From Bacteroidales bacterium (GTDB lineage Bacteria; Bacteroidota; Bacteroidia; Bacteroidales; P3), in the NCBI GenBank assembly GCA_017647065.1, contig JAGCLI010000037.1, positions 1-16,283 on the forward strand: DNA of 16,283 bases. Reading direction: 5' to 3'. Both the position numbers and the translations under genes were made by a program. Numbering within the stretch: the stretch's first letter is position 1; each line of letters begins with the position of its first letter. Below are positions 1,686 through 12,435 of this stretch, piece after piece. The notes under the pieces are model-generated. The model was given only the letters and a program-made list of their open reading frames with translations, was not told where the DNA came from and did not search any database.

Positions 1686-2444
1686 TTAAAAACTACGAGC
1701 GATTTCTATAAAGTCTGCACTCTTCAACGCTGCTCCGCCAATAAGTCCTCCATCTACGTCTTGTTGTGCAAAAAGTTCTCTTGCGTTCTTAGGATTGCAA
1801 CTTCCTCCATAAAGAATTGAAATCTCTTGTGCTACATCGTCTGAATATTTCTCTGTAATCAAACCTCTAATAAACGCATGTACCTCTTGTGCTTGTTATT
1901 TTGTTGCAGTTTTTCCTGTTCCTATTGCCCAAACAGGTTCGTATGCTATAACAACCTTTTGAATTTGCTCTTCATTTAAGTGAAACAATCCCTCAACAAC
2001 TTGAGAACGTATTACATCGAAATGTTTATCTGCTTCTCTATCCTCTAATTGTTCTCCGACACATACAATTGGTGTAATTTCTACTTCAAGCAATTTATCT
2101 ACCTTTTGAGCAACATCTTGATTAGTTTCAAAGAAATATTTTCTTCTTTCACTATGTCCTACAATGCAATAATCCATATTCATTGATTGCAACATCTTTG
2201 CTGACACCTCACCTGTATATGCTCCATCATCGAATTTTGATACATTTTGTGCTCCAACAAAAAACTCCACATCCTCTGCTGCATCTCCCACAAGTTCAAG
2301 ATAAGGAAATGGAGGACAAACCACTACATCTACATCTGTTGTATCAAATTCTCTTAACGCTTCTGCTATATCTGTTATCAATTCATCTGCATCGGAAAAC
2401 GTTTTATTTGATTTCCAATTGCCTGCTACTATATTTCTTCTCAT
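1686..2444 (-). pseudogene. tpiA: Triosephosphate isomerase with one in-frame stop codon
   Basis: TIM interconverts glyceraldehyde-3-phosphate and dihydroxyacetone phosphate in glycolysis. The N-terminal part is a textbook TIM: NWK with catalytic K11, GHSERR with H97, and loop 6 YEPVWAIGTGK with catalytic E169. After codon 182 (GTGKTATK) there is a TAA at 1896-1898. The same frame then continues for 69 conserved codons ([36 protein letters not shown]) to a normal TAA at 1686-1688. Full length would be about 252 residues, the usual size, so nothing is inserted or deleted. Most TIMs have an acidic residue at the stop position, so GAA changed to TAA is the simplest origin. The truncated product lacks strands 7 and 8 and the phosphate-binding GGS and GG loops and should be inactive. 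A genuine nonsense mutation, an assembly error and read-through are all possible. First gene of an operon with prmA. Confidence 0.9.
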
Positions 2445-2573: not shown

Positions 2574-3740
2574 TTAGTATGAAATCAATTTGTCTATTTC
2601 GGATTTCACAACATCAATCAATCTTTCATAATACCTGTTTTCAGAATACTCTCCAACAACTCTCTCTCTTGCAAAAGCAGAAAGGCGTTCAAACAACGTA
2701 TTATCAGAAAACAATCGTTCAATCGTAGACACAATTGCATCATAATCTTTGAATGAAACAATAAAACCGTTTTTGCCATTTTCAACAACATCTTTTGCAG
2801 CCAAAATATCATAAGCTACAACGGGCACTCCTCTTTTCATTGCTTCGATTACAACCATGCTAAAACCCTCATACCAATTACTTAAAAACAAAAGGACTTT
2901 CGATTCCAAGTAAAACTGATTTAACTGTTCTTTCTCCAAGAATCCAAAGAATTTTACGTTTGATGGTATTTCTCTATCTTGAAAATTGTTCTTTGCACCA
3001 GCCACTGCAAACTCGTAATCAGGCATTTTTTTCGCTATTTTCAGAAAATCATTAAAGCCTTTTTCTTCTGTAATTCTCCCAACAAAAGATATATATTTTC
3101 TATTGCAAGATTTAATTTCATTATTTGCTGACACATCTATTGCATTAGGCAACAAACTGACTTTACTTTTAGGATTCAGATACTCTTTAATAAGATACAT
3201 TTGCACCTTATTAAGACAGAGGAAATTATTTACCTTATTATAATAGCCCAATTTTCTAACAAGATAATATCTTACAAAAAATGAAAACGATGCAATGGCA
3301 TTTCCTGCACACCTATTTTTGAAACAATTCCACTCTCTACCCTTTCCGATACAATCTTTACAAATTTTACCCTCTCTATACAAAATTCCAATCGGACAAA
3401 ACAGTCGATAATTATGTACAATTTGAAAAACCTTCAAACCTTTCTTTCTCAAAAAAGGAATAATCGCAGGAGATATTATAGGAAACAAGTTATGCAATAT
3501 CACAGCATCAAAATCATCTTCCTTTAATATTGCATTCAAGTCTCTAAAACTTCGAAAATTAACCACCGAAGTGAACATTCCCCAAAATTTTCCAAGGAAC
3601 CATTTATTCATTTCAGAATAAGAACGAGTATAAAGCACAACTTTATGCCCATGCTTTTCCAAAAGAGTCTTTTGAAACTCCACAACAGATTCTTCTCCAC
3701 CCCGTATAGAATATTCATTATGGATTATAAGAAAATTCAT
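2574..3740 (-). CDS. GT4-family glycosyltransferase
   Basis: Retaining GT-B glycosyltransferase (GT4 / glycosyl transferases group 1) of 388 residues, cytoplasmic or membrane-associated. The N-terminal acceptor domain opens with FLIIHNEYSIRGGEE, containing the GGxE loop typical of GT4 enzymes that start MKIL.IH. A cysteine cluster (FCPIG near 114-118, CKDC 127-130, C139, C144) belongs to a recognisable GT4 subgroup. The donor domain has FVGRITEEKG at 219-228, with the conserved R and K that contact the nucleotide-sugar phosphates, and the E-x7-E motif at E291/E299 in EGFSMVVIEAM. The sugar and acceptor cannot be read from the sequence. The gene lies just downstream of a Wzx-like flippase on the same strand but has its own promoter. 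A role in surface polysaccharide or glycan assembly is therefore likely, though not proven. Confidence 0.92.
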   Translation of the reverse strand: MNFLIIHNEYSIRGGEESVVEFQKTLLEKHGHKVVLYTRSYSEMNKWFLGKFWGMFTSVVNFRSFRDLNAILKEDDFDAVILHNLFPIISPAIIPFLRKKGLKVFQIVHNYRLFCPIGILYREGKICKDCIGKGREWNCFKNRCAGNAIASFSFFVRYYLVRKLGYYNKVNNFLCLNKVQMYLIKEYLNPKSKVSLLPNAIDVSANNEIKSCNRKYISFVGRITEEKGFNDFLKIAKKMPDYEFAVAGAKNNFQDREIPSNVKFFGFLEKEQLNQFYLESKVLLFLSNWYEGFSMVVIEAMKRGVPVVAYDILAAKDVVENGKNGFIVSFKDYDAIVSTIERLFSDNTLFERLSAFARERVVGEYSENRYYERLIDVVKSEIDKLISY

Positions 3741-3809
3741 TCTATTGTTTAATCAGTTTTATTGTATATTCAGTATTCTTTTCTACTATTTTCAACACTT
3801 TTACGTTTG

Positions 3810-9157: not shown

Positions 9158-9160
9158 AAG

Positions 9161-9231
9161 TTATCCCGCAAAGATTCGAACTTTGAATGACTGAACCAAA
9201 ATCAGTTGTGTTACCATTACACCACGGGACA
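9161..9231 (-). tRNA. tRNA-Gln (anticodon TTG)
   Basis: A 71-nt cloverleaf on the minus strand. Acceptor TGTCCCG pairs with CGGGATA (one G-U), with discriminator A at 9161. The D-arm is GTGT/ACAC, the anticodon arm ACTGA-TTTTGGT-TCAGT with anticodon TTG, and the T-arm CAAAG-TTCGAAT-CTTTG. The terminal CCA is not encoded. It has its own promoter and terminator. Confidence 0.96.
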
Positions 9232-9688: not shown

Positions 9689-10042
9689 ATGAGCAGAAAG
9701 AATTACTTCATTTTTGATAATGATTTTTTATCCTCTCTTAGCGAGAAATTAGCAAGGGAGTTATCTCTAACAGAGGCAGTTATAATCTCTTTTATCTCCT
9801 CTTGGGGTGAGAAAGGTTTTTATGGTAGTCAGAAGACTATGGCGAAGAAATTACATATAACCGATAGGACTCTCAGAAATCATTTGAAGAAATTGTTGAA
9901 AGAGGAGATAATTTTAGAGAAAAAAAACTCAGGATATGACACTAAATGTCTGATTTTTAATAAAAATTTATCAAATCAGACTATTTATAAAAGTGAAGAA
10001 GAAGATAAGGAGTTCCAAGAATTATTGAACTCATTAAAATAA
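9689..10042 (+). CDS. Winged-helix DNA-binding protein (replication-module regulator or initiator)
   Basis: Basic protein of 117 residues. A helical N-terminus leads into LSLTEAVIISFISSWG (26-41) and a helix-turn-helix: GSQKTMAKKLHITDRTLRNHLKKLLKEEII (about 46-75). A wing follows (ILEKKNSGYDTKCLIFN, 75-91), then an acidic C-terminal tail (SEEEDKEFQELL). This arrangement resembles HTH_36-type domains in plasmid and phage replication proteins and in regulators. It is too small to be a complete classical Rep protein. It may bind the repeats upstream to control the module or help open the origin; this is inferred from position only. The start ATG at 9689 follows a T-run without a Shine-Dalgarno sequence. 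The next gene begins 24 bp later and is probably co-transcribed. Confidence 0.8.
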   Translation: MSRKNYFIFDNDFLSSLSEKLARELSLTEAVIISFISSWGEKGFYGSQKTMAKKLHITDRTLRNHLKKLLKEEIILEKKNSGYDTKCLIFNKNLSNQTIYKSEEEDKEFQELLNSLK

Positions 10043-10066
10043 TAATTATTTAAAATATATTAAATC

Positions 10067-11962
10067 ATGGTAGAAACAATTAAAACAAAATCATCTCCAC
10101 GCTTCTACAGTTTTTACAATAGAGATGTAGTGAGCAGATGGATGGAAGAAAAAGAACTTCTAAAAAGGGAAGTAAGTTACCTCACACAAGAAGGTAAAGA
10201 AGGTAAAATGATTAAAGTTGATTTTTCAAGCAGTGAAGACTTGAAAAAGAAAGTAGAAGAAATTGATAATGAAAACATTAAGGGGTGGTATATCACGCCA
10301 AACCCAACTGATGGCAAGGGAAGAAAGGCAGAAAATATCACTAAACGTGAATGGTTGATAGTGGACATCGATACGGTGAGAAAGAAAAAAACCAACGCCA
10401 CCAACCAAGAGATAGAAAAGGCATTTGACGTTGCATATGATATAGAATGTGAGACTATAACAATGGCGGACTTGTGCAAAACACATTGGCAGATACCATA
10501 CATCGCACTGAGCGGAAATGGTGTACATTTATTGTATCGTTGCGACTTACCCAACACAAAAGAAGCAAACAAATTAGTGAGTAAATGGTATAGTTTGTTA
10601 GATAAAGCGTTTTCAACACCAGAGGCAAAAATAGACGTCTCCATGGCATCTATTGCACAACTAACCAAATTGTACAACACTTGGGTAAGAAAGGCACCAG
10701 AGGAAGAAAATCGCCCTTGGCGACAAAGTTCATTACGTAGGATAGATTACAATGAATACGAGTGGTCCTACGTATTAGGGGACAGTGACGAATACTCAAG
10801 AATAATTGACATAGACAAATTAAAAAAAATGGTAGAAGATTTAGAACAAGTAATAAAAGGAAAGAACCAAATAAACAACAGAGAATGGTTGAAAGCATGG
10901 TGCGTGGAGCACAAATTAGAGTATAAAGAAACGATAACAGGGGTAATGTTTAAGAATTGTCCTTTTTACCATGAGCATCAACAAGAATATTGTAGTGGCG
11001 TGATGTGCGACAGAGCAGTTAGCGTAGATAATTTTGTATTTTACTGTTTCGGAACTCATTGTAAGGACGAGCAAGATAAGCAACTTCACACTTGGAAAGA
11101 ATTAAGGGCGTTAGTTGAAAACGGAGAAGTTGCACAAGAAGTTGCACAAGAGGAAACCACAAACAACAACACAGAACTTCCCGCTCCTATTAATCTTACA
11201 GATGAGAGGATTGTGGCAGAGAAGGAGTTTTGGGCAACTAATATTTCGTCTCTTGACCAGGCACTTGGTGGTGGTTTAGCAAAAGGGGAAATGAGCGTTG
11301 TAACAGGTTTTCCAACAGGTGGAAAATCTACCTTCGTTCAACAAATGGTAGCGAATTATGTTCGTGGAAATCTATCTGTTGGGTATTATCAAGGCGATAG
11401 AAGTCAAGAGGAAGTGAAAAATAATTTCCTTACTATTGGTCTATCTGAAGATGAGTTGGCGAAAGTTAATTTTTATTCTTGTTTGCAAGATATAACACCT
11501 GAACAAATGGTGGAAATATCTTCATTATACGATGTCTTTGTTTTTGACAGTTTTAAATCGTATGAAAACCAATTGAATGCCGATTACACACTTTCAGCAC
11601 AATTAGCTGGGCAGTTTTCAAGGGTTGTTAAGGAAAAGAAAAATCACATCCTAACAGTAGCGCATCAGACATCACACAATGGTCTTGCAAACACGACCGA
11701 TATTGCATCTTCGATTCAAATTAAAAATAAAGCAGATATGATTCTCGCAGTGGAAAGATATAATGATGAATTCGCACGAAAGGTGTACCTAGAGTTAGGA
11801 AAAGATAGTGATTTTTATTCAGATTTACTCGTCTACAAGAGAATGGGTGCGAATCCTTCTGCCTTTTTCTCAGTTTTCAAGAATCAGACAGGTGGTGAAC
11901 TTATAAGAATTCCAATTTTGTTTGAAAAAGAAAAAAAATTATTCAAAAATTATCAAAATTAG
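10067..11962 (+). CDS. Bifunctional AEP-type primase / DnaB-like (SF4) helicase
   Basis: Protein of 631 residues that appears intact and joins primer synthesis with DNA unwinding. The N-terminal domain (about 70-230) has archaeo-eukaryotic primase motifs: WLIVDID with D100 and D102 (metal-binding DxD), SGNGVHLLYR with H154, a third acidic residue D190 in AKIDVS, and TWVRK 205-209. A zinc-finger-like segment follows (about 298-332: C298, H302, H304, C309, C314, C327, H331, C332), similar to CHC2 or PriCT modules. A low-complexity linker (352-375) leads to a RecA-type motor: LDQALGGGLAKGE, Walker A GFPTGGKST (414-422), Walker B VFVFDS with D494, TVAHQTSH with H533, and a KRMG arginine-finger-like site at 591-594, as in DnaB and Twinkle. 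It would prime and unwind DNA at the element's origin. The partition into domains is motif-based. Confidence 0.88.
   Translation: MVETIKTKSSPRFYSFYNRDVVSRWMEEKELLKREVSYLTQEGKEGKMIKVDFSSSEDLKKKVEEIDNENIKGWYITPNPTDGKGRKAENITKREWLIVDIDTVRKKKTNATNQEIEKAFDVAYDIECETITMADLCKTHWQIPYIALSGNGVHLLYRCDLPNTKEANKLVSKWYSLLDKAFSTPEAKIDVSMASIAQLTKLYNTWVRKAPEEENRPWRQSSLRRIDYNEYEWSYVLGDSDEYSRIIDIDKLKKMVEDLEQVIKGKNQINNREWLKAWCVEHKLEYKETITGVMFKNCPFYHEHQQEYCSGVMCDRAVSVDNFVFYCFGTHCKDEQDKQLHTWKELRALVENGEVAQEVAQEETTNNNTELPAPINLTDERIVAEKEFWATNISSLDQALGGGLAKGEMSVVTGFPTGGKSTFVQQMVANYVRGNLSVGYYQGDRSQEEVKNNFLTIGLSEDELAKVNFYSCLQDITPEQMVEISSLYDVFVFDSFKSYENQLNADYTLSAQLAGQFSRVVKEKKNHILTVAHQTSHNGLANTTDIASSIQIKNKADMILAVERYNDEFARKVYLELGKDSDFYSDLLVYKRMGANPSAFFSVFKNQTGGELIRIPILFEKEKKLFKNYQN
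11126..11149 (+). repeat. 2 x 12-bp tandem repeat in primase-helicase linker
   Basis: Two perfect adjacent copies of a 12-bp unit encode EVAQ-EVAQ between the zinc-finger-like segment and the helicase domain. It probably arose by slippage and lengthens a flexible linker in frame. Confidence 0.8.
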
Positions 11963-12030
11963 GTCACTTTTTTAAAATTGAGACTATTTATATATATAAG
12001 ACAATAATAATTAAATAAAAACTAAAAAAA

Positions 12031-12435
12031 ATGATTAAGTACGTAAAAGTTAAAAGAGACATTCATGTCGGACAAAATCCTGGTGAGCGCTATGTCGCTC
12101 GCCTTTTCAGAGGACAAGATGTAGATTTAGACTCAATTGCAGAGTCAATCAGTAACTCTACAACAATTAGTTATGCCGATGTTATTGCTACATTAAAGGC
12201 ATTGGAAATTGAAATAAGTAAAGCAATACTTAATGGTAGTGCAGTGAAATTGAATTATTTAGGTTCGTTTATTCCTCAGTTAAACGCAAAAAGTCAATTA
12301 GATGTTGATACCTGTGATGCGAGTTCCATAAAAAGATTTTCTTGCAGATTTTTACCATCGGTGAAATTTAAACACAATCTTGAAAAAGTTAAATTTCAAG
12401 AAGCAGATTTAGAAGTAAAAGGGTTAGTTGAATAA
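12031..12435 (+). CDS. HU-family DNA-binding protein (Bacteroidota long form)
   Basis: Protein of 134 residues of the HU/IHF family, in the longer Bacteroidota variant rather than the roughly 90-residue housekeeping HU. The core is visible at about 20-85: RYVARLFRGQDVDLDSIAESISNSTTISYADVIATLKALEIEISKAILNGSAVKLNYLGSFIPQL. This follows the HU pattern of two helices, then a strand with the conserved G-x-x-V-x-L-x-x-L-G-x-F. The DNA-binding arm is altered and followed by a charged extension (91-134). Such proteins bend or wrap DNA and are frequent in Bacteroidota mobile elements. It lies 68 bp after the primase-helicase with no clear promoter between, so it is probably the last gene of the module, perhaps shaping the origin. 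The stop codon lies inside a terminator hairpin. Confidence 0.85.
   Translation: MIKYVKVKRDIHVGQNPGERYVARLFRGQDVDLDSIAESISNSTTISYADVIATLKALEIEISKAILNGSAVKLNYLGSFIPQLNAKSQLDVDTCDASSIKRFSCRFLPSVKFKHNLEKVKFQEADLEVKGLVE

Follow-up and report, generated by a model that had tools for sequence, protein, structure and literature searches.

An in-frame TAA codon in the otherwise conserved triosephosphate isomerase gene of a Bacteroidales draft genome

The only triosephosphate isomerase gene (tpiA) found in a draft genome of a Bacteroidales bacterium is interrupted by one in-frame TAA codon, which is restricted to this draft among the genomes compared and is followed by codons under normal constraint. 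On balance, this TAA is probably a consensus error or a mixed-strain artefact. The window considered here, 16,283 nucleotides long, is one whole contig (JAGCLI010000037.1) of the draft.

Translated on the reverse strand from position 2444 to position 1686, the gene gives 182 residues, a TAA, 69 further residues and the natural TAA stop, the frame being unchanged throughout. The first 182 codons (1899..2444, reverse strand) were recognized by translation and by a Pfam TIM match (E 6.1e-66 for these residues alone, profile positions 2-176) and extend through the AYEPVWAIGTG segment, which we take to contain the catalytic Glu. The in-frame TAA (1896..1898, reverse strand) stands at residue 183 between the codons AAA and CAA. 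The 69 codons beyond it (1689..1895, reverse strand) remain in frame, contain the YGGS and GGLIGGAAL segments and no ATG, and end with the natural stop TAA (1686..1688, reverse strand). One base further on lies the ATG of a prmA-like gene for ribosomal protein L11 methyltransferase (PF06325; 821..1684, reverse strand), which follows directly as a single open frame. Thus, the preliminary description, which had reported one in-frame TAA followed by CAA and neither insertion nor deletion, is confirmed by the sequence and its translation.

Using a six-frame search with PF00121, a single TIM match was found that covers profile positions 2-243 of 245 and includes the TAA. The window gene therefore resembles bacterial TpiA in matching nearly the full profile through the stop and differs from it in having a stop at codon 183 of 252, so that the whole barrel is not encoded by one uninterrupted frame. 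Because the frame is conserved on both sides, the TAA is regarded as a lesion rather than as the true end of the gene. The truncated protein would lack YGGS and GGLIGG, presumably the phosphate-binding segments, and is predicted to be inactive. As to an independent start past the stop, the 69 codons contain no ATG, and TTG is found at the 12th of them and again near the end. P0002, a close protein that is intact, can be aligned over its whole length with TIM enzymes of solved structure, the best being 9qus.

The first 182 residues served as a query against 40 related genomes, five of them of the same genus, and 32 of the 40 have a completeness of 90% or more with contamination of no more than 5%. 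Each of the 40 gave one match, in an open frame of at least 252 amino acids, and neither the stop nor a lesion shared across the lineage was seen in the relatives compared. Codon 183 is GAA in three same-genus loci (L003, L004 and L005) and GAT in the two others (L006 and L007), which supports the earlier proposal of a one-base change from GAA to TAA. The accompanying claim that the site is normally acidic holds for the genus (5/5) and mostly, not always, beyond it. An acidic residue was found in 18 of the 22 readable loci among 29 fetched from relatives and read by motif search (the others have Gln twice, Lys and Ala), and in 17 of the 20 readable ones in a second set of 21 named loci drawn partly from the same genomes (the others have Gly, Ala and Ala).

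P0002 is the closest public protein among the matches listed. It differs from the window product at four of 252 positions, namely residues 144, 160, 183 (the stop) and 197, and has Glu at residue 183. Compared at the protein level, it may come from the same species as the window. Residue 197 is Thr in the window and Ala both in P0002 and in G003, the nearest relative. Three similar proteins among the matches listed, 84% identical, are labelled Candidatus Onthomorpha.

Comparison with G003 gave a dN of 0.032 and a dS of 0.449 for the 182 codons before the stop, and a dN of 0.013 and a dS of 0.953 for the 69 codons after it, where one amino-acid difference stands against some 25 silent ones. The relaxed constraint to be expected of a pseudogene fixed in the lineage was not found past the stop, and therefore the change is either very recent or not real.

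Draft genomes are known to contain isolated nonsense substitutions as well as consensus errors, and the present case is like them in every respect noted: one base, one genome and a gene otherwise undecayed. Literature searches on lone changes of this kind in drafts found no paper on point. The source draft comprises 1,716,669 bases in 332 contigs, is 72.2% complete and 3.5% contaminated, and appears to be a metagenome-assembled genome. In such an assembly one wrong consensus base could arise from a sequencing error, from a minority variant, or from the merging, at a conserved motif, of reads that belong to a different strain or species, and the organism itself would most likely make a normal triosephosphate isomerase. 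The fragmentary state of the draft, the open frames in all 40 relatives together with Glu 183 in P0002, the predominance of silent differences after the stop and the contig ends that account for missing glycolytic genes all count for the artefact reading. By rough arithmetic, an error rate of 1e-5 per base over 1.7 Mb would correspond to somewhat less than one false stop for each genome.

Two further proteins among the matches listed touch on the same place. The N-terminal part of P0003 is nearly that of this species, and right after GTGKTATKE it passes into a very different TIM C-terminus. P0052, with 183 amino acids and 84% identity to the query, agrees exactly with full-length P0019 over 179 residues and then has a foreign four-residue tail. 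Judged from these sequences, both are possibly assembly chimeras, in which case assemblies or reads may get mixed at the GTGKT motif, in favour of an artefact. Alternatively, P0052 may represent another genuine truncation, in a relative and close to the position of the TAA, which counts against the artefact reading, as does the location of the stop, some 1.9 kb from the end of the 16.3 kb contig and not at its very end.

To survey the frequency of lesions in the draft, 61 of its contigs, together 357,324 bases, were compared with G003, represented by 40 stretches (728,118 bases). The comparison yielded 84 matched places, in which 27,259 residues were aligned; tpiA was included by design. Excluded from the count beforehand were matches below 60% identity or with E above 1e-20, frames shorter than 100 amino acids and any second frame at a place already matched, and the survey is blind to a stop very near the end of a gene. 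The draft was flagged in four of the 84 places: tpiA, L139, L069 and L126. Only L139 was accepted as a lesion besides tpiA, with a frameshift near the end of a gene. This frameshift (L139:8796-8814) lies in an A+T-rich stretch resembling the dispersed repeat described below, and the product of the gene has clustered cysteines, in the manner of an iron-sulphur protein. L069 was rejected because its stops and frame change occur only where the frame of the relative extends, apparently as non-coding sequence, upstream of the Met with which the well-conserved part begins. A repetitive frame of 148 amino acids, L126, has three draft stops, each counted in three overlapping alignments; similar frames on other draft contigs also hold stops, and L126 may be an antisense shadow of a repeat protein and is probably no gene. 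In the reverse direction one of the 84 places was flagged, ispH, where the natural G003 stop falls just inside the aligned end.

Thus, tpiA is the one convincing non-repetitive draft gene with an internal stop in 84 matched places, and therefore TAA is not reassigned in this organism. TAA is also the usual stop: the 84 matched draft frames end with TAA in 59 cases, TAG in 10 and TGA in 7, and 8 are cut by contig ends. In the window TAA terminates nine of 13 other genes checked, in agreement with the preliminary count of at least seven. Global reassignment is ruled out by these data, and the earlier view that the code is not globally changed was correct. Errors are evidently not widespread in the draft, and this speaks to some degree against an error at the tpiA stop, although one error in the genome would suffice.

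A real and very recent GAA to TAA nonsense mutation, making tpiA a null allele in this strain, is the other reading to be taken seriously, and we consider it possible, though less likely than an artefact. The cell would then live on bypass substrates or cross-feeding, or the allele would be short-lived in the sampled population. The change needs one step and the gene is otherwise undecayed, both as expected of such an allele; Thr 197 would be tolerable in a dead gene, yet one change proves nothing. A null strain is also conceivable from experiment, as an E. coli tpiA knockout is reported to show limited growth in complex media and none on synthetic media, with a build-up of methylglyoxal (PMC4006690). 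Against a null allele, the single open copy in 40 of 40 relatives and the low dN argue that loss of the gene is costly, and no glycolytic decay was found beyond that explained by contig ends.

In fact, the profiles of phosphoglycerate kinase (PGK) and of the C-terminal domain of GAPDH gave no match in the draft, and that of enolase matched only a piece running into a contig end; PGK and GAPDH were found in all five same-genus genomes and enolase in four of them. Around the PGK gene of G003 two draft contigs match, one on each side, and both stop short of the gene. Around the GAPDH gene one draft contig ends before the gene, and the other side has no good match. Scoring covered 40 of 292 candidates in one of these neighbourhood searches and 40 of 293 in another. 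We take the missing genes as assembly gaps, seen for GAPDH from one side, and glycolytic decay was set aside, since draft contig ends account for the missing genes. In one neighbourhood search (40 of 292 candidates scored), 40 of 44 draft matches were taken by a dispersed, A+T-rich and apparently non-coding repeat with units like CAAAGAAATAATTTT, also present in G003 at L190:3516-3643 and L191:3812-4228. An exact pattern of 15-16 bases was counted seven times in the draft (357 kb) and 28 times in G003 (728 kb), with no occurrence in one Markov resample of each.

The same broken allele was also sought in public sequences. With the 182 residues as a query, no similar product of 182 amino acids was found among the best 120 of 992 hits (8,000 scored), a set of clustered protein records in which an identical truncated product could be hidden. 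Among the best 120 of 1,110 hits to the 69 residues, P0133 is identical over its 53 residues (longest contig, 2,083 bases); its first residue corresponds to residue 200 and is not a Met, and the protein therefore falls short of the stop. A 17-base pattern over the stop occurs in three viral contigs, and this candidate was rejected, as the flanks in all three are unrelated to tpiA.

A broader conjecture, of a gut-type Bacteroidales strain that either has a real null tpiA and relies on bypasses or neighbours or has an ochre suppressor that escaped notice because its gene lies in the part of the genome not assembled here, is in our opinion quite unlikely.

Read-through of the stop by a suppressor tRNA or owing to its context, so that the full-length enzyme is made, is very unlikely. 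The codons past the stop are indeed conserved, but a lesion of very recent origin would leave them just as well conserved. The base next to the stop is C, which is a weak termination context. Anticodon UUA was absent among the 22 tRNAs found in the draft, a clearly incomplete set without tRNAs for Ala, Ile, Val, Lys, Phe and Cys. The folding of the RNA downstream of the stop showed nothing unusual (z -1.23; 25 of 200 shuffles at least as stable), and no older adaptation is visible, as the frames of the relatives are open at the site. In a study of E. coli, read-through peptides were found for 0.23% of genes ending with TAA, and some sites are hotspots whatever the stop, which would favour read-through, whereas TAA was the least read-through stop in a reporter library, with means of 0.01 to 0.05% of the wild-type signal (PMC11126739). 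This alternative of the preliminary description thus gained no support. Nor did its other suggestion, a second functional tpiA that makes the window copy redundant: about 28% of the genome is missing and could hold one, but the TIM profile found one match in the six-frame draft and one match was found in each of 40 relatives, most of them nearly complete, which makes a second gene extremely unlikely.

Some other features of the window may be mentioned. The glycosyltransferase gene region at 2618-3805 has no blastn alignment in G003 and G004, whose stretches are otherwise collinear with the window, and appears to be a variable gene slot. Three genes at 9689-12435, which lie downstream of a tRNA-Gln gene (9160-9231), encode a helix-turn-helix protein, a protein of 631 amino acids with a weak DnaB/KaiC-like ATPase match and an HU-like protein; this region looks like a small integrated element and is a candidate for one. 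The G003 stretches compared match the window up to 9022 only, and genes of the window beyond this region are also unmatched, so that absence of the element from G003 is not to be concluded from these stretches.

Summarizing, an artefact at the tpiA stop and a recent null allele are the two live readings, and neither is a new phenomenon. Where a fragmentary draft shows a lone stop in a conserved gene, both relatives and reads should be consulted before recoding or loss of a pathway is claimed. A stop that was real and stable would point to a strain able to tolerate the loss of a central glycolytic enzyme.
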